Source of the DNA: Arthrobacter sp. Soil764
Lineage (GTDB): Bacteria; Actinomycetota; Actinomycetes; Actinomycetales; Micrococcaceae
DNA length: 64,000 nt
NCBI RefSeq assembly: GCF_001428075.1
Contig: NZ_LMSI01000019.1
Coordinates: 186,895 to 250,894, forward strand
Direction of reading: 5' to 3'
The notes under the pieces are model-generated. The model made no database searches. It was not told the origin of the DNA and saw only the letters and a program-made list of their open reading frames with translations. Shown piece by piece: positions 30,970-41,447 of this stretch. The first letter of the stretch is position 1. Each line of letters starts with the position of its first letter. A program made the translations under genes and the position numbers.

Positions 30970-33513
30970 TCAGAGCCGGTTGACGTCCGTCACCCTGACC
31001 ACCGCTGTTCCGGTGGCATCGGATGCGGCAAGATCCACCTCAGCCGAGATGCCCCAGTCGTGGTTGGCCGCCGGGTCATCGAAAATCTGGCGGACCTTCC
31101 AGGATCCGGGTTCCTCGGTGATGATGAGCAGGCCCGGCCCGCGGGCATCCGGCCCTGTCCCAATATCGTCGTGTTCGTCGAAGTAGTCGTCCAAAGCGTC
31201 TTCCCAGCGTTCTGAACCCCAGCCGGAACCGCCGTCGAGCTCTCCCAGGGCGGCGGCGTCCTCGTCCGCGAAAAGTTCCACGCGCCGGAACATCTCGTTG
31301 CGCACCATCACCCGGAACGCACGGATATTTGAGGTGAGCGACGGCGGTGGAGGCGGCGGTGCGTCGTGGGGTGTCGGCGCCGCCCCGGAAGCCAGTTCCT
31401 CCCATTCGTCCAGGAGGCTGGAGTCCACCTGCCGCACCAGCTCACCCAGCCAGGCCGTCAGGTCCGCCAGGTCCTCACGAAGCATGTCCTGCGGGACTGT
31501 CTGGCGCAGCGCCTTGAAGGCATCGGCCAGGTACCGCAGCACGATTCCTTCGGACCGGGCCAGGCCGTAGAACTGGACGAATTCGCCAAAGTTCATGGCC
31601 CGCTCGTACATGTCGCGGACCACCGACTTGGGCGCGAGTTCGAAGTCTCCCACCCACGGCGCGGCCTTCCGGTACACCTCGAACGCTTCGCCCAGGATCC
31701 CGGCGAGCGGCTGGGGGTAGGTGACCTCGTCCAGCATGGCCATCCGCTGGTCGTAGTCGATGCCGTCGGCTTTCATGGCCGCCACCGCCTCGCCGCGCGC
31801 CTTCTTCTGCTGGGCCGACAGGATCTGCCGCGGTTTCTCCAGGGTCGCCTCGATCACGGACACCACGTCCAGGGCGTACGACGGCGACTCCGGGTCAAGG
31901 AGCTCCAGTGCGGCAAGTGCGAAGGGGGAGAGCGGCTGGTTCAGGGCGAAGTTCGGCTGCAGGTGGACGGTCAGCCGGACCGTGCGGCCGTCGGTGCCCT
32001 GTTCCTCCGGCGGGATCCGTTCGATGACCTCGGCGGCCAGCAGTTCCCGGTAAATGCCCAGGGCCTTCTTCATCAGCCGCAGCTGGGAGGACCGCGGCTC
32101 GTGGTTCTCCGTGAGCAGCCGCCGTGCCGCCGCGAACGGGTCGCCCGGCCGTTCCATCAGGTTCATCAGCATGGCGTGTGTCACCGTGAAGCTGGACGTC
32201 AGCGGATCCGGCACCGATTCCACCAGCCGCTTGAACGTCGGCTCACCCCAGGAAACAAAACCCTCGGGCGGCTTCTTCTTCACCACCTGGCGCAGCTTCT
32301 TTTGATCGTCCCCGAACTTGGCGGTGGCCTTGGCCATCGCCTTGACGTTCTCGATTACATGCTCGGGTGCCTGAACCACCACCGTCCCGGCGGTGTCGTA
32401 GCCCGCCCGCCCGGCCCGGCCCGCAATCTGGTGGAACTCGCGTGAGTTGAGCAGGCGGGTGCGGACGCCGTCGTACTTGCTCAAAGCCGTGAGCAGCACC
32501 GTGCGGATGGGAACGTTGATCCCCACCCCCAGCGTGTCCGTGCCGCAAATAACCTTCAGCAGCCCCGCCTGCGCCAGCTGCTCCACCAGCCGGCGGTACT
32601 TGGGCAGCATTCCGGCGTGGTGCACGCCGATCCCGTGGCGCACCAGGCGGTTAAGCGTCTTGCCGAACCCGGCGGCGAAGCGGAAGTTGGCAATCAGCTC
32701 CGCGATCCTGTCCTTCTCCTCCCGGGTGCAGACGTTGATGCTCATCAGGTTCTGGGCGCGGTCGATCGCTTCGAGCTGGCTGAAGTGCACCACGTAGACG
32801 GGCACCTGCCGGGTGGACAACAACTCCTCCAGCGTCTCGTGGACGGGAGTCTGGTGGTAGTAGTAATGCAGCGGAATGGGCCGTTCGGCGGAGCTGACGG
32901 TAGTGGTGGCGCGGCCGGTCAGCTCCGTGAGCCCCGTTTCGAACCGGGTGACATCGCCCAGGGTGGCGGACATCAGCAGGAACTGCGCCTGTGGAAGCTC
33001 CAGCAGGGGGACCTGCCAGGCCCAGCCCCGCTGCGGGTCGGAGTAGAAGTGGAACTCGTCCATGATCACGGCGCCCAGTTCGGCTGCGGAACCTTCGCGC
33101 AGCGCGATGTTGGCAAGGATCTCTGCGGTGCAGCAGATGATGGGAGCATCCTGGTTCACCCCGGAGTCACCGGTGATCATGCCTACGTTCTCTGCTCCGA
33201 AGATCTCACAGAGCGCGAAGAATTTTTCGGACACCAGGGCTTTGATCGGCGCCGTGTAGTAGCTTCGCCGGCCCTGCGCCATCGCCTGGAAGTGCGCCGC
33301 GATGGCCACCAGGGATTTCCCTGACCCGGTGGGCGTGGCCAGAATGACGTTCGCCCCCGTCGCCAGCTCCATGATGGCCTCGTCCTGTGCCGGGTACAGC
33401 GACAGGCCCCGGCTTTCCGTCCACTCCACAAACCGGGTGTAAAGGGCGTCGGGGTCGACGGCGGCGGATTGGACGGGGGCGGACAGATCGCTCAGCTGGT
33501 CAACGAGTTTCAT
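30970..33513 (-). CDS. DEAD/DEAH-box helicase with DUF3516
   Basis: 847 aa. Helicase motifs in order: YPAQDEAIMELATG, Walker A ATPTGSGKS, APIKALVSEKFF, Walker B VIMDEFHFYSD, SATL, then HHAGMLPKYRRLVEQLAQ, CGTDTLGVGINVPIRTVL and HQIAGRAGRAGYD. The C-terminal half is the DUF3516 region found mainly in actinobacteria, with a charged, Pro-rich insert (PHDAPPPPPP). It resembles Ski2-like RNA helicases; substrate unknown. The ATG at 33513 (MKLVDQLSDL) follows AAGGTTGAAGTCA. Confidence 0.9.
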   Translation of the reverse strand: MKLVDQLSDLSAPVQSAAVDPDALYTRFVEWTESRGLSLYPAQDEAIMELATGANVILATPTGSGKSLVAIAAHFQAMAQGRRSYYTAPIKALVSEKFFALCEIFGAENVGMITGDSGVNQDAPIICCTAEILANIALREGSAAELGAVIMDEFHFYSDPQRGWAWQVPLLELPQAQFLLMSATLGDVTRFETGLTELTGRATTTVSSAERPIPLHYYYHQTPVHETLEELLSTRQVPVYVVHFSQLEAIDRAQNLMSINVCTREEKDRIAELIANFRFAAGFGKTLNRLVRHGIGVHHAGMLPKYRRLVEQLAQAGLLKVICGTDTLGVGINVPIRTVLLTALSKYDGVRTRLLNSREFHQIAGRAGRAGYDTAGTVVVQAPEHVIENVKAMAKATAKFGDDQKKLRQVVKKKPPEGFVSWGEPTFKRLVESVPDPLTSSFTVTHAMLMNLMERPGDPFAAARRLLTENHEPRSSQLRLMKKALGIYRELLAAEVIERIPPEEQGTDGRTVRLTVHLQPNFALNQPLSPFALAALELLDPESPSYALDVVSVIEATLEKPRQILSAQQKKARGEAVAAMKADGIDYDQRMAMLDEVTYPQPLAGILGEAFEVYRKAAPWVGDFELAPKSVVRDMYERAMNFGEFVQFYGLARSEGIVLRYLADAFKALRQTVPQDMLREDLADLTAWLGELVRQVDSSLLDEWEELASGAAPTPHDAPPPPPPSLTSNIRAFRVMVRNEMFRRVELFADEDAAALGELDGGSGWGSERWEDALDDYFDEHDDIGTGPDARGPGLLIITEEPGSWKVRQIFDDPAANHDWGISAEVDLAASDATGTAVVRVTDVNRL

Positions 33514-33610
33514 TGACTTCAACCTTAGTGCCACGTTGCGGGCGGATCAGGAGTCCGTTGCGGGTTAGGCTACGCCTTGCCCGTGTGTGCGTCAGAAGCT
33601 GGAGAATTTT

Positions 33611-34390
33611 ATGAAATGGGACCCCGCGAAGTACGTCCAGTTCGGCGACTACCGGAACCGGCCGTTCTTCGATCTCACAGCCCGGATCCATGCCGACGCT
33701 CCCGCACGGGTGGTCGACCTGGGCTGCGGACCGGGGAACCTCACGGCCACCCTGGCTGAACGCTGGCCCGGCGCCCAGGTCCTGGGTGTGGATTCCTCCG
33801 CGGAGATGCTGGCAAAGGCGGCAGCCCTGGTGGAGGAAGGTTCCTCCCTTCAGTTCGAGCAGGCGGACATTGCCGACTGGATGCCGGCTCCGGAGACGGA
33901 CGTTGTGGTCACCAATGCAGCCCTGCAGTGGGTTCCGGGCCACCAGGACATGATGCGGAAATGGCTGGAAGTTCTACGGCCGGGGGCCTGGTTTGCCATG
34001 CAGGTGCCCGGAAACTTCAATGCCCCCTCGCACTCGCTCATGCGGGAGCTCGCGGGGTCGCACCGGTGGGCAGCGAAGCTGGACGGGGTGCTGCGGGGCG
34101 GCGAGTCAGTGGGGGAGCCGGGGGACTACCTGGGCATCCTGCTCGACGCCGGCTGTGCGGCGGACGCGTGGGAAACCACCTACCATCAGGTCCTGCCCGG
34201 GCCGGACCCGGTGCTGGAATGGGTCCGGGGCACGGCACTGCGGCCCGTCATGGCCGTCCTCGAAGATAACGACGCCACGCGTTTCGAAGCCGAATACGCG
34301 GCCGCCCTGCGGGATGCCTATCCCCGCGGTGTCCATGGCACCGTTTTTCCGTTCCGCCGGATATTCGCCGTGGGGCGCAAAGCGGGCTGA
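33611..34390 (+). CDS. tam: trans-aconitate 2-methyltransferase
   Basis: 259 aa. MKWDPAKYVQFGDYRNRPF is the Tam N-terminus, which fixes the start. SAM motif I is VVDLGCGPGNLTATLAERWP, with the acidic GVDSSAEML and the motif-II DVVVTNAALQWVPGH. The enzyme methylates trans-aconitate, an inhibitor of aconitase. CTGGAG lies 7 bases before the ATG. TAGGCT is found about 45 bp upstream as a -10, giving a short leader. Divergent from the helicase gene. Confidence 0.9.
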   Translation: MKWDPAKYVQFGDYRNRPFFDLTARIHADAPARVVDLGCGPGNLTATLAERWPGAQVLGVDSSAEMLAKAAALVEEGSSLQFEQADIADWMPAPETDVVVTNAALQWVPGHQDMMRKWLEVLRPGAWFAMQVPGNFNAPSHSLMRELAGSHRWAAKLDGVLRGGESVGEPGDYLGILLDAGCAADAWETTYHQVLPGPDPVLEWVRGTALRPVMAVLEDNDATRFEAEYAAALRDAYPRGVHGTVFPFRRIFAVGRKAG

Positions 34391-34420
34391 GCGCGAGCCC
34401 GCCGCATGGTTTTCCAGCCG

Positions 34421-34435
34421 GTCACAGGCTGTGAC
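34421..34435. promoter_or_regulatory. 15-bp perfect palindrome, candidate GntR operator
   Basis: GTCACAG-G-CTGTGAC has perfect 7-bp arms. It lies 22 bp upstream of the TACAAT hexamer and at the head of an operon whose last gene is a GntR/YtrA regulator, so autoregulation through this site is the simplest reading. Confidence 0.5.
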
Positions 34436-34457
34436 AGCAGCGGAAAGTGATCTGGCT

Positions 34458-34463
34458 TACAAT
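34458..34463 (+). promoter_or_regulatory. -10 element of the ABC-ABC-GntR operon
   Basis: TACAAT matches the -10 consensus at five of six positions. No clear -35 at normal spacing; the palindrome occupies that area, as in a repressed or activator-dependent promoter. Confidence 0.5.
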
Positions 34464-34529
34464 GACGACTGTGGTTTAGGGGTCAAGCCGCTGGCCCCCT
34501 CTGCGGCCCAGGCATTTACAGGGGGTATT

Positions 34530-36290
34530 TTGCTGGTCGGACTCATGAGGCGGCAGCTTGCCGGTCAATACGCGTACGTTGGGGCGATCGTTTTCCTCCA
34601 GCTGGTCCAGGCAGCGGCAAACCTGCTGCTGCCCACGGTGAACGCGGCCATCATCGACGATGGGATCGTTGCGGGCAAACCGGAGGTGATCGCGCGACTT
34701 GGCGTGCTCATGGCCGTTATTGCCGTGGTGCAGGCGGCATCCGCCATTGCGGCGGGCTACCTTGGTGCGGTGGTGGCCATGAGGACGGGGCACCGTCTGC
34801 GGGCCGAGGTTTTCACCCGGATCCAGTCACTGTCCTCCCAGGACGTGGCCCTGTTCGGAACGCAAAGCCTGACCACCCGGGCAACGAACGATGTGCAGCA
34901 GATCCAGGCTTTCGCTGTACTTGTCTTCACCATGCTCTTCGCAGGGCCCGCCATGGGCATCGGCGGCATCGCCCTGGCCGTACAGCAGGATATGGCGTTG
35001 TCCCTGGTGGTGATCGTCATCGTGCCCCTGCTCCTGCTGATCATGTACCTGATCGTCCGGCGCCTGATTCCGCTCTATCGTGAGGGCCAGGACCTGCTCG
35101 ACCGGTCGGGGGGGATCCTGCGCGAGCAGATCATCGGTGCGGACGTCATCCGCGCCTTTGTCCGCCAGGACCATGAGATCCGGCGGTTCGCGGAGACCAA
35201 CGCGGGATTAACCGCCAACAACCTGCAGTCCGCGCTCCTGGTGGCGGGGATGTTGCCCATGATCATGCTGGTGGTCAACACCAGCTCGGTTGCCATCGTA
35301 TGGTTCGGTGGGCACCGCATCCAGGCTGGACTGATGAACCTTGGCGCGCTGACGGCATTCATTGCCTATATTATGCAAATCCTGCTGGCGATCATGATGT
35401 CCATGTACGTCCTGATGACGGCGCCGCGTGCCGCAGTCTGCGCCGAACGCATCCAGGCGGTCCTGGAGACCGAGCCGTCCGTCCCCAGTCCGGCCGGCCA
35501 CAGCGCCGCCGCGCCGGCGAAGCCCGTGGCCGGCCTGCCAAAGCAGCCGGCAACGCTGGCGTTCCAGGGTGTTGCCTTCTCCTATCCGGGAGCAGAAGCG
35601 CCCGTGCTGGCGGATATCACCTTCACCGCGGCTCCCGGCACTACCACCGCAATCGTTGGCTCCACCGGAAGCGGCAAGACCACGCTGCTGAACCTGATTC
35701 CACGTTTCCTTGAGGCGACCAAAGGCAGCATCACCCTGGCCGGCCACGACATCCGGGACCTGCCCCTGGACCAGCTCCGCGCTGCCATGGCCATCGTGCC
35801 CCAGCACTCCCACCTGTTTACCGGAACCATCGCAGACAACCTGAGGATGGCGGCCCCTGACGCCACGGATGGGGAACTCTGGGCCGTCCTGGAGGCGGCC
35901 CAGACCATGCGGTTCATGCGCGACCTCCCGCTTGGACTTGCAACCCCGGTGGGCCAGGGCGGTGCCAGCCTCTCAGGCGGGCAGCGGCAGCGGCTCTGCA
36001 TCGCAAGGGCCCTGTTGCGAAAGGCACCCCTGTACCTCTTTGACGACAGCTTCTCCGCACTGGACTACGACACCGATACGAGGCTGCGGCAGGCCCTGGA
36101 GCAGGGGCTCGCCGACGCAACGGTCATCATTGTTGCCGAGCGCCTTTCCGCCGTGGAGGACGCGGACCGCATCCTGGTGCTCGACGACGGCCGGCTGGTG
36201 GCGCAGGGAACGCACCAGGAGCTGCTGGAAACGTCCGCCACGTACCGGGAAATCGCCGAGTCCCAGCTCGCGCTGGACGGCACGCCGTGA
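34530..36290 (+). CDS. ABC exporter half-transporter, first subunit
   Basis: 586 aa from TTG at 34530 (MLVGLMRRQLAGQY, the family N-terminus), with AGGGGG 5-6 bases upstream; an ATG at 34545 is the alternative. Six-helix permease domain to about residue 320, then an ATPase: IVGSTGSGKTTLLNLIPRF, PQHSHLFTGTIADNLRMA and signature GASLSGGQRQRLCIARALL, then FDDSFSALD. The Walker B acid region reads LYLFDDSFSALDYD: the usual D-E pair is D-D, so this may be the degenerate site of a heterodimer with the next gene. Substrate unknown. Confidence 0.88.
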   Translation: MLVGLMRRQLAGQYAYVGAIVFLQLVQAAANLLLPTVNAAIIDDGIVAGKPEVIARLGVLMAVIAVVQAASAIAAGYLGAVVAMRTGHRLRAEVFTRIQSLSSQDVALFGTQSLTTRATNDVQQIQAFAVLVFTMLFAGPAMGIGGIALAVQQDMALSLVVIVIVPLLLLIMYLIVRRLIPLYREGQDLLDRSGGILREQIIGADVIRAFVRQDHEIRRFAETNAGLTANNLQSALLVAGMLPMIMLVVNTSSVAIVWFGGHRIQAGLMNLGALTAFIAYIMQILLAIMMSMYVLMTAPRAAVCAERIQAVLETEPSVPSPAGHSAAAPAKPVAGLPKQPATLAFQGVAFSYPGAEAPVLADITFTAAPGTTTAIVGSTGSGKTTLLNLIPRFLEATKGSITLAGHDIRDLPLDQLRAAMAIVPQHSHLFTGTIADNLRMAAPDATDGELWAVLEAAQTMRFMRDLPLGLATPVGQGGASLSGGQRQRLCIARALLRKAPLYLFDDSFSALDYDTDTRLRQALEQGLADATVIIVAERLSAVEDADRILVLDDGRLVAQGTHQELLETSATYREIAESQLALDGTP

Positions 36291-38098
36291 CGGCGGTGGA
36301 AGAAGCAGGGGAGACGGAGCACAGGTTCTGGCCGACGGCCGGCAGGCTCCTTGGACTGCTGCGCCCCTTCCGACTGCAGATGCTCGGTGCGGTGGCGGCA
36401 ACCTGCGCCTTCGCGACTCTCAACGTTGCCGCCCCAAAGTACCTGGGCGACGCCACTGACGTGGTGGTGGATGGCATCTTCCAGGGAAGCCTTGACCAGC
36501 GCCTCGGAATCCTGCTGGCCGCCGTGGCCGTCATGTACGTCTTTGCCTCCCTGTTTAACTGGATCCAGGGCGCGCTGACCGCACGCGCAGTCCAGGGACT
36601 CATGTACGGCCTGCGTGCAGCAGTTGAGGACAAGCTGCACCGCCTCCCTTCGACCTATTTCCGGCAACGCTCCCGTGGTGACGTCCTGAGCAGGGCCACG
36701 AATGACATCGACAACATTGCACAGGCCCTGAACCAGGTCCTGACCCAGCTCATCGTGTCCGTTCTGATGCTGTGCGGTTCCCTGGCCATGATGCTGTGGA
36801 TCTCGCCGTTGCTGGCGGCCATTGCCATTGCCAGCGTTCCGGTCTCCACCTGGATCACCGTCCTGGTGGCCAGGCGGTCCCAGGAGCACTTCGCCAGGCA
36901 GTGGAAGGAAACGGGCGAGCTCAACGCACACGTGGAGGAATTCGTCAGCGGGCATGAAGTCATCAAGGCTTTTGGCCGGCAGGCACAGGCGGCGGAGGTG
37001 TTCAGGGCCAGCAACGGCCGCCTTGCCCGGGCAGCGGCCAAAGCCCAATACTCAGCCGGGGTGGTCCAGCCGCTGATGGTGCTGATGTCCAACCTTAACT
37101 ACATTGCTGTTGCCGTGGTGGGGGCGCTGCAGGTCATCGCCGGAACCATGACCATTGGCGGAGTCCAGGCATTCATTCAGTTCAGCCGGTTGTTCACCCA
37201 GCCGGTGGGGCAGATCGGCGGGCTGCTGAACGTGATGCAGTCCTGCGCCGCATCCGCAGCACGGGTTTTCGTGCTCCTGGACGCCGGCGAAGACCCGCAG
37301 GAGCCCCCGGGCAAGGCAACCGGCGTGGCTGCAGCAGGGCGCATGGCCTTCCACGACGTCACGTTCGGCTACCCGGGCTCCGTCCCGGCGGTCCGCAACC
37401 TCACCTTCACGGTGGAGCCCGGCCAGGCAGTGGCCATCGTAGGACACACCGGCGCGGGCAAGAGCACTGTGGTGAACCTGCTCATGCGGTTCCTGGAACC
37501 TTCCTCCGGACGGATCACCATGGGCGGGAGGGACATCGCCGACATTCCCCGTGACCAGCTGCGGGCCCGGTTCGGCGTAGTGCTTCAGGATTCCTGGCTC
37601 TTTGCGGGGACAATCCGGGAAAACATCGCTTATGGCCTGACCGGTGCCACGGATGCTGCCATCGTTGCCGCCGCCGAAGCCACCTACGCGGACCGTTTCA
37701 TCAGATCCCTGCCACACGGCTACGCAACGATGCTGGAGAACAGCGGGGAGCCGCTCAGCCAGGGGCAGCGCCAGCTCATCACCATCGCCAGGGCACAGCT
37801 TGCCGGGCGCAGCGTGCTGGTCCTGGATGAAGCCACCAGCTCCGTGGATTCCAGGACCGAGCTGCTCATCAGGCAGGCGATGCAGCGGCTCCGCCAAGGA
37901 CGGACCAGTTTCGTGATTGCGCACCGTTTGTCCACCATCCGGAACGCTGATCTAATTCTCGTCATGGACCATGGACGCATCGTCGAGCAAGGCACGCATG
38001 GAAGCCTCCTTGCTGCCAACAGCTACTACGCAAGGCTGTACAACGCGCAGTTCGCCGAACGTGACGGCCGGGCCGGCGTTCTGGAGGGTGGCCTGTGA
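36287..38098 (+). CDS. ABC exporter half-transporter, second subunit
   Basis: 603 aa; GTG start overlaps the previous stop as GTGA. Permease domain, then AIVGHTGAGKSTVVNLLMRF (Walker A), LQDSWLFAGTIRENIAYG (Q-loop), GEPLSQGQRQLITIARAQL (signature LSQGQ) and LVLDEATSSVDSRTE (Walker B with intact catalytic Glu). It should pair with the first subunit in a heterodimeric exporter with one full and one degenerate ATP site, the BmrCD/TM287-288 layout. It overlaps the GntR gene by 4 bp. Confidence 0.9.
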   Translation: MTAVEEAGETEHRFWPTAGRLLGLLRPFRLQMLGAVAATCAFATLNVAAPKYLGDATDVVVDGIFQGSLDQRLGILLAAVAVMYVFASLFNWIQGALTARAVQGLMYGLRAAVEDKLHRLPSTYFRQRSRGDVLSRATNDIDNIAQALNQVLTQLIVSVLMLCGSLAMMLWISPLLAAIAIASVPVSTWITVLVARRSQEHFARQWKETGELNAHVEEFVSGHEVIKAFGRQAQAAEVFRASNGRLARAAAKAQYSAGVVQPLMVLMSNLNYIAVAVVGALQVIAGTMTIGGVQAFIQFSRLFTQPVGQIGGLLNVMQSCAASAARVFVLLDAGEDPQEPPGKATGVAAAGRMAFHDVTFGYPGSVPAVRNLTFTVEPGQAVAIVGHTGAGKSTVVNLLMRFLEPSSGRITMGGRDIADIPRDQLRARFGVVLQDSWLFAGTIRENIAYGLTGATDAAIVAAAEATYADRFIRSLPHGYATMLENSGEPLSQGQRQLITIARAQLAGRSVLVLDEATSSVDSRTELLIRQAMQRLRQGRTSFVIAHRLSTIRNADLILVMDHGRIVEQGTHGSLLAANSYYARLYNAQFAERDGRAGVLEGGL

Positions 38099-38475
38099 GT
38101 AACGGCGCCGGCTTCCCCGGTTCCTGGCGGCCCAACCCGGCCAGCACTGTTGCGTTGTTTGAGCAGCTGCGGCTCCAGGTCATCCACCTGGCAGACAGCG
38201 GCGCGCTGGCACCGGGCACCAGGCTGCCTGCCGTGCGGGCCCTCGCGGAGAAGCTGGACGTCGCCCCGCACACCGTGGCCAGGGCGTACAAGGAACTGGA
38301 GGCTGCCGGCATCGTTACCACCCGCGGCCGCAACGGGACGGTGGTCGCCGCACGGGATGAGCGGCTGGGAGGCCTGTCGGCCGCGGCTTCCGCCTACGCC
38401 GCCGCCGCCAAATCCCAAGGGGCCAGTTTCGCCGAGGCAGTGAAGATCCTGGCGGCCGCCTACGATGTTCCCTGA
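38095..38475 (+). CDS. GntR-family regulator, YtrA type
   Basis: 126 aa; GTGA overlap with the transporter. It contains only the winged-helix domain (LFEQLRLQVIHLADSGALAPG, then RLPAVRALAEKLDVAPHTVA and AYKELEAAGIVTTRGRNGT) plus a short helical C-terminus for dimerisation. YtrA-type regulators typically repress the ABC transporter genes beside them and respond to antibiotics or envelope stress. Its position as the last gene of the operon supports autoregulation, possibly at 34421-34435. Confidence 0.9.
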   Translation: MSNGAGFPGSWRPNPASTVALFEQLRLQVIHLADSGALAPGTRLPAVRALAEKLDVAPHTVARAYKELEAAGIVTTRGRNGTVVAARDERLGGLSAAASAYAAAAKSQGASFAEAVKILAAAYDVP

Positions 38476-38493
38476 TGGCGGAACCGTAAGTGT

Positions 38494-38509
38494 TCGAAAA
38501 AGTTTTCGA
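38494..38509. promoter_or_regulatory. LexA (SOS) box of uvrA
   Basis: TCGAAA-AAGT-TTTCGA is a perfect 6+4+6 palindrome of the actinobacterial/Gram-positive LexA type (consensus TCGAAC-N4-GTTCGA). It directly abuts TAGCAT (38511-38516), the -10 that ends 6 bases before the uvrA GTG, so bound LexA would block the promoter. Confidence 0.8.
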
Positions 38510-38522
38510 TTAGCATAATGGG

Positions 38523-41447
<2,925 letters not shown>

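Follow-up and report, generated by a model that had tools for sequence, protein, structure and literature searches.

A predicted promoter and leaderless small ORF nested in an ABC exporter gene ahead of a GntR regulator in Arthrobacter

Leaderless small ORFs joined by an RTGA overlap to the next gene are a described class in mycobacteria, in which selection seems to act more on the linkage than on the peptide (excerpts of PMC4633059), and in Shigella a promoter internal to a gene, virF, gives rise to a leaderless mRNA (excerpts of PMC5101355). For short GntR proteins of the YtrA subfamily, a 24-bp motif has been called the typical operator, and one such regulator, YtrASa, is an autorepressor encoded together with a membrane protein (excerpts of PMC6746942). 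Among heterodimeric ABC exporters, the mycobacterial isoniazid efflux pump MsRv1273c/72c, described in a paper that contains the code 8wcw, has Asp497 in the Walker B motif and Gln528 in the switch of MsRv1273c (excerpts of PMC12038006).

Here, we describe a locus of Arthrobacter sp. Soil764 (G000; genome of 4.35 Mb). The window, the whole stretch of DNA that was analysed, is 64,000 nucleotides long, and all positions refer to it. A helicase-like gene (30970-33534, minus strand, named from its sequence) and a trans-aconitate 2-methyltransferase gene (33587-34390; NCBIfam NF010703, 366 bits against a cut-off of 320) are followed on the plus strand by abc1 (34530-36290), abc2 (36287-38098) and gntR (38095-38475), and then by uvrA (about 38523-41447, named from its sequence). 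The start of abc1 is most likely the TTG at 34530, with a Shine-Dalgarno sequence, AGGGGG, at 34520-34525. As an earlier note on this DNA had read them, the genes overlap as GTGA, the abc1 stop with the abc2 start at 36287-36290 and the abc2 stop with the gntR start at 38095-38098, and the operon is closed by a GntR/YtrA-like regulator, a 126-residue protein with a PF00392 winged helix (residues 28-84, E 4e-15) and a short C-terminal part. The anatomy described earlier is thus real and, as an exporter operon, ordinary. The regulator has 13 solved matches, several being GntR chains of 113-134 residues, and scores 115.2 bits against NF053730, the family of Rv1152, below its cut-off of 170. Between gntR and uvrA lies an SOS-box-like palindrome, TCGAAA-AAGT-TTTCGA (38494-38509), a putative LexA site; TCGAA-N6-TTCGA is found at all 114 loci checked. 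At 38511-38525, uvrA may be leaderless too, with TAGCAT, 6 nt and a GTG at 38523.

The two adjacent half-transporters each carry a membrane domain (PF00664) and an ATPase domain (PF00005). In the translation of abc1, Walker B reads LFDD, with Asp in place of the expected Glu, and the switch motif AERLS has Glu in place of His; ABC2 keeps an intact Walker B and switch (VLDEATSSVD and IAHRLS). The ABC2 signature LSQGQ, absent from the earlier note, also belongs to the degenerate site, and all three changes map to one composite ATP site. Domains and motif changes in both halves agree with the exporter pair first proposed, with a degenerate first ATPase and an intact second one. Within the genus of the window, the D-D Walker B is found in 75 of 77 ABC1 proteins and the signature LS[QHRKT]GQ in 78 of 78 ABC2 proteins; the pattern used for the ABC1 switch matched 6 of 77 and is too narrow to count altered switches. 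The BmrCD-like layout suggested at first holds for the degenerate and intact halves, but the closest solved relative is MsRv1273c/72c, chains 8wcw_A and 8wcw_B being the best solved relatives of ABC1 and ABC2 (E 1.3e-160 and 1.3e-161). As described in the excerpts, that pump shares the Walker B Asp of its first half with ABC1 but has Gln at the switch position (Gln528) where ABC1 has Glu, and it exports isoniazid, whereas drug export here is putative. BmrCD (YheI/YheH) is likewise a solved heterodimeric multidrug exporter; it is more distant from ABC2 (299 bits for 7m33_D versus 542 for 8wcw_B and 446 for TM_0288) and is not among the 60 listed solved matches of ABC1. Two more ABC1 relatives (49-50% identity) are encoded outside the window, at C2:55116-56801 and C5:94079-95800 of the same genome.

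Upstream of abc1, the perfect palindrome GTCACAG-G-CTGTGAC reported earlier is present at 34421-34435 (box A, GTCACAGGCTGTGAC; conserved core GTCA-N7-TGAC). It is the only exact copy in the 4.35-Mb genome, and two other places have one mismatch. Box B (GTGATCTGGCTTACAAT, 34447-34463, plus strand) contains TACAAT (34458-34463), the predicted -10 of the exporter promoter, and has no copies with fewer than 3 mismatches elsewhere in its own genome. The palindrome had been placed on the -35; however, TACAAT and a 17-bp spacing put the -35 slot at 34435-34440 (CAGCAG), so that only its upstream edge is touched. No -35 hexamer stands at the usual place, the promoter scan found no sigma-70-type pair in 34300-38700, and about 41-42 bp separate the centre of box A from the downstream transcription start that TACAAT predicts; box A could as possibly be an activator site as an operator.

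Conservation of this region was counted in 73 of 81 unique loci with abc2, these 73 having room for a promoter before abc1; L191 and seven loci with a gap of 30-37 nt between the methyltransferase gene and abc1 were left out, and L027, which has no methyltransferase match, stayed in. Conservation of the palindrome before orthologous operons is borne out for the core (38/73) but not for the perfect form (5/73), which by this count is lineage-specific. The core precedes the block GTGAT...TACAAT by 11 nt at 34 loci and by 12 nt at 4, and box A is, on this evidence of a core in 38/73 regions at 11 or 12 nt from box B, more than chance. Box B itself is found in 66/73 upstream regions by a loose pattern, and stricter forms of both boxes at the common spacing occur in 34/206 genomes. 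Box A is missing at 35/73 loci, all of which keep gntR, and its centre varies. Three further candidates were rejected: an RNA fold shared by the abc1 5' UTRs (that of the window folds at -22 kcal/mol, yet 64 aligned UTRs yield no common structure, with a consensus energy of 0), leaderless initiation of abc1 close behind its -10 (36/66 show a start codon at +6 to +8, not consistently), and an Rfam family (one chance snoRNA match, E 0.89). In the seven loci with the 30-37 nt gap (L015, L017, L018, L020, L100, L101 and L105) there is no room for boxes A and B, and the exporter seems, because of that gap, to have joined the methyltransferase transcription unit.

A second element, absent from the earlier note, lies inside abc2 at 37928-37966 and reads TTGTCC-N17-TCTAAT-N7-ATG, with the ATG in the abc2 frame. 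The predicted nested promoter (37928-37956, plus strand) consists of TTGTCC (37928-37933), 17 bp and TCTAAT (37951-37956); 7 nt later, the ATG of Met560 opens a predicted leaderless small ORF made of the last 44 codons of abc2 (37964-38098, plus strand), whose stop falls in the GTGA that starts gntR. The codons that spell this element are frozen across the genus, with TTG for TTGTCC (100%, expected 7%), GCT, GAT and CTA for TGATCTAAT (100% each, versus 8%, 24% and 2% expected), and GTC (99% versus 38%) and GGA (97% versus 17%) around the nested ATG. Among 78 unique abc2 genes (L191 and L199, with short or broken abc2, and 16 identical abc2 were left out), codons 546-559 reach 1.85 bits of codon preference, against maxima of 1.43 in 5000 column permutations and 1.51 in 2000 others. 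A thinned set of 29 rows (<55% codon identity) peaks at 1.77 bits at codons 548-563, a value reached by 0 of 5000 permutations (largest 1.76). No similar hidden element was found in abc1 (best window p=0.85, 77 genes), gntR (0.55, 117 genes) or the methyltransferase gene (0.09, 114 genes).

Sigma-70 promoters show a strong preference for A at the second base of the -10. The nested hexamers are conserved and 17 bp apart but have C at this base, and the promoter scan missed them because it requires A there; an alternative -10 register, TAATTC/TAATCT at 19 bp spacing, could also apply. In the window gntR also has GGAGG (38083-38087) 7 nt before its GTG, so coupling to the small ORF need not be essential. 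From codon 6 onward, the small-ORF peptide has a pN/pS of 0.69 across 31 exporter-less loci (L217 omitted), which suggests that it is weakly constrained. A 24-bp dyad, TGGTC-N14-GACCA, covers the nested promoter in 31/32 exporter-less loci, mostly found by pattern; it is broken or shifted in L217, L231, L239, L241 and L242. With its 24 bp, the dyad would suit a candidate operator of the YtrA type (excerpts of PMC6746942).

The exact pattern TTGNNC-N17-TCTAATYYTSGNCATGGA occurs in 174/206 genomes of the genus, once in each of the 174, and a reversed-pattern control gave 0 matches in the 206. Slightly changed versions that fit TTGNNN-N17-TNTAAT-N7-ATG occur in 24 of the other 32 genomes (10 from loci of the initial set and 14 from loci fetched for the purpose), which brings the total to 198/206. 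Two more (G373 and G428) have 6 nt before the nested ATG. The element is absent from G303, G380, G409 and G454, all exporter-less with gntR right after the methyltransferase gene (overlapping it by NTGA in the first three, with a few bases between in G454), and G403 and G455, which have no close gntR, fall outside the element reading. A gntR match at E <= 1e-40 is present in 202/206 genomes. In G372, gntR (C1:1719409-1719774) appears broken, with 2 in-frame TGA and two overlapping partial matches, and the nested promoter pattern is present. Beyond the genus, the element is absent from 15/15 more distant loci that have both exporter and regulator, which places its origin in or near the genus of the window. 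Another genus of the family (g7) has no exporter at any of 15 loci, and at 13 of these gntR itself appears leaderless; in four g19 genomes, 27-39 nt separate gntR from the end of the methyltransferase match. In six loci of other genera (L111, L112, L127, L129, L130 and L139), an opposite-strand gene for what is by eye a metallo-beta-lactamase-fold hydrolase lies between the methyltransferase gene and gntR, in the exporter's place.

Within the genus, the element also outlasts the exporter. In L097, L102 and L103, abc1 and abc2 are lost and a stretch matching abc2 codons ~554-564 is kept just upstream of gntR. Altogether the element is kept at 36 loci without an exporter, namely 31 first loci, L217 and the loci of G428, G442, G456 and G346; 35 have its strict form, and L231 (G428) has 6 nt before the ATG. 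At 36/36 the ATG opens an uninterrupted small ORF whose stop overlaps the start of gntR (34 by NTGA, 2 by TGATG), with lengths of 5 codons (G456 and G346), 20-23, 27 or 32, and the -35 and the 17-bp spacing are kept despite a changed spacer. Because 28 of the first 31 loci were found by a pattern holding part of the element, those 28 cannot count as independent evidence for it; that pattern did not cover the -35, the 17-bp spacing or the ORF. The other loci came from a family sample (3), by GntR similarity (L217) and from genomes without the exact pattern (4), and 16 duplicate loci were dropped before counting. By this comparison, exporter-less loci retain the predicted promoter, its ATG and an ORF that terminates on gntR.

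The full exporter is missing at the locus in at least 42/206 genomes of the genus, with gntR still there in nearly all. Whole-genome searches of 33 exporter-less or partly deleted genomes (31 plus G415 and G378; E <= 1e-100) gave no ABC1 match above 51% identity, and the other 9 genomes were judged from the locus alone. A move of the exporter to another place was rejected, since only relatives of 48-51% identity occur in 33/33 and the genome of the window has two such also. On a tree of methyltransferase and GntR proteins made by a quick method (129 rows, 125 ingroup and 4 outgroup), exporter presence changes 6 times, a rough number since several branches are weakly supported, and one change may only set off the other genus g19. 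One group holds 34 exporter-less rows, and all of them except L250 (G303) retain the element; 33 of the 36 element-bearing loci thus fall in one clade, which points to few events. Apart from this group stand L246 and L247 (the 5-codon form), L217 with L249, L248, L251, and the partly deleted L191. L252 (G373), scored as exporter-present, is decaying, with abc2 codons 460-602 only and a frameshift.

Linkage was also read from the exporter's side, in the neighbourhoods of the best 80 of 566 ABC1 relatives found. An ABC2-like match is present in 80/80; gntR occurs in the DNA examined in 28, all from Arthrobacter or Pseudarthrobacter, whereas the remaining 52 show the ABC partner there and lack a regulator of this type. 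Exporter and regulator are, by these comparisons, separable.

We consider it probable that the operon comprises two expression units, the second driven by a nested sigma-A-type promoter with a leaderless small ORF that feeds gntR. The upstream promoter (boxes A and B) would give the exporter mRNA with gntR at its end, and the promoter inside abc2 (37928-37956) a short mRNA starting at or next to the ATG of Met560. Initiation on this leaderless ATG would turn the last 44 abc2 codons into a small ORF, and the GTGA overlap would carry the ribosomes on to gntR; synthesis of the regulator could then proceed with the exporter switched off, which is what autorepression of the operon would call for. 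The comparison of genomes shows frozen codons, fixed spacing, open in-frame ORFs, an overlap with the gntR start and survival of this unit alone at loci that have lost the exporter, and we infer transcription and leaderless initiation at the unit, as well as repression of the exporter by GntR. The nested unit and its survival argue that the regulator, which outlives the exporter, would have an expression unit of its own, and hence that the locus is not the self-contained module of the earlier note. Tentatively, and with the odds somewhat against it, selection may keep a portable nested cassette (promoter, leaderless ATG and a ribosome-delivering ORF ending on the regulator start) rather than an efflux operon. 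Originating within the exporter gene, this cassette would have persisted in several lineages after that gene was lost and shrunk to as little as 5 codons, which would make the regulator's target older than the exporter; leaderless loading may keep the regulator supplied when ordinary initiation is inhibited, for example by antibiotics that the pump exports.

The original proposal was one co-transcribed, self-contained module in which GntR binds the palindrome at 34421-34435, an inducer, conjecturally an antibiotic or envelope stress, releases it and gntR is made only from the exporter promoter. The two GTGA overlaps, the nearly fixed distance of the box A core from box B at 38/73 loci and the adjacency of regulator and exporter in the genus fit this account. 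It nevertheless appears quite improbable to us, since gntR, with its own predicted leaderless promoter inside abc2, persists with the nested element in exporter-less genomes, 52 of the best 80 (of 566) ABC1 relatives have an ABC partner without such a regulator, the 35/73 loci without box A all keep gntR, and 15 bp is short for a YtrA-type operator, for which 24 bp is given as typical (excerpts of PMC6746942). Those same 52 pairs, together with the retention of gntR in at least 40 genomes without a full exporter, would be expected if GntR does not control the exporter at all and has its target elsewhere, the exporter merely sharing the locus. A regulator kept without the exporter does imply another target; the long-standing linkage with GTGA overlap in the genus, and linkage at 15 more distant loci, nonetheless leave an exporter wholly outside GntR control unlikely.

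The nested promoter may also be real and the small ORF incidental, gntR being translated from its own Shine-Dalgarno sequence; the GGAGG 7 nt before the GTG in the window and the weak constraint on the peptide are in keeping with this. It is, however, unlikely given that the ATG stays 7 nt after the -10 in 198/206 genomes and that at 36/36 exporter-less loci an uninterrupted ORF, even one of 5 codons, runs up to the gntR start. Very improbable is a role for the frozen codons other than as a promoter, such as the binding site of an unrelated DNA protein or a part in ABC2 translation or folding. Two preferred codons do lie outside the promoter proper, GGA at 563 (97%, expected 17%) and CGT at 547 (82%, expected 9%), but loci that have lost abc2 still carry the stretch directly ahead of gntR, with its -35 and 17-bp spacing preserved despite a changed spacer sequence, and the pattern occurs once per genome in the 174 genomes that have it.

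Set against the described systems, the two-unit reading is of a known kind, that of leaderless coupled small ORFs; the new part is the nesting and the survival after exporter loss. The mycobacterial RTGA small ORFs, as presented in the excerpts of PMC4633059, share with this unit a leaderless start (predicted here), a short ORF, the RTGA overlap and a linkage kept more than the peptide. They differ in that the predicted unit described here lies within the coding region of a second operon gene and persists once that gene has been deleted. Shigella virF, in the excerpts of PMC5101355, likewise has a promoter internal to the gene and a start 1-2 nt before an in-frame ATG (predicted here), but there the product is a shorter regulator, whereas here it would be the C-terminus of an exporter half and would probably serve to deliver ribosomes to gntR. 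With YtrASa (excerpts of PMC6746942) and Rv1152 (excerpts of PMC4923875) the regulator shares its short GntR protein; unlike in those systems, as far as the excerpts describe them, gntR here closes its operon and has a predicted nested promoter. Among the matches listed from open-licence literature, none describes a leaderless unit nested in an exporter gene, which is no proof of its being unpublished, and none on leaderless genes in Arthrobacter (titles and abstract openings) concerns a nested unit. No paper joining GntR, Pseudarthrobacter, ABC transporter and promoter was found in the open-licence literature.

The nested unit would account for the supply of a repressor whose gene comes last in the operon that it silences, and comparison across genomes makes it an example of a coding sequence whose codons also spell a predicted promoter and leaderless start for another gene. 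Deletion of a transporter need not remove the control element that it carries. Because at least 42/206 genomes are without the full exporter and nearly all of these keep gntR, an exporter plus a regulator should be treated as a closed module with caution.
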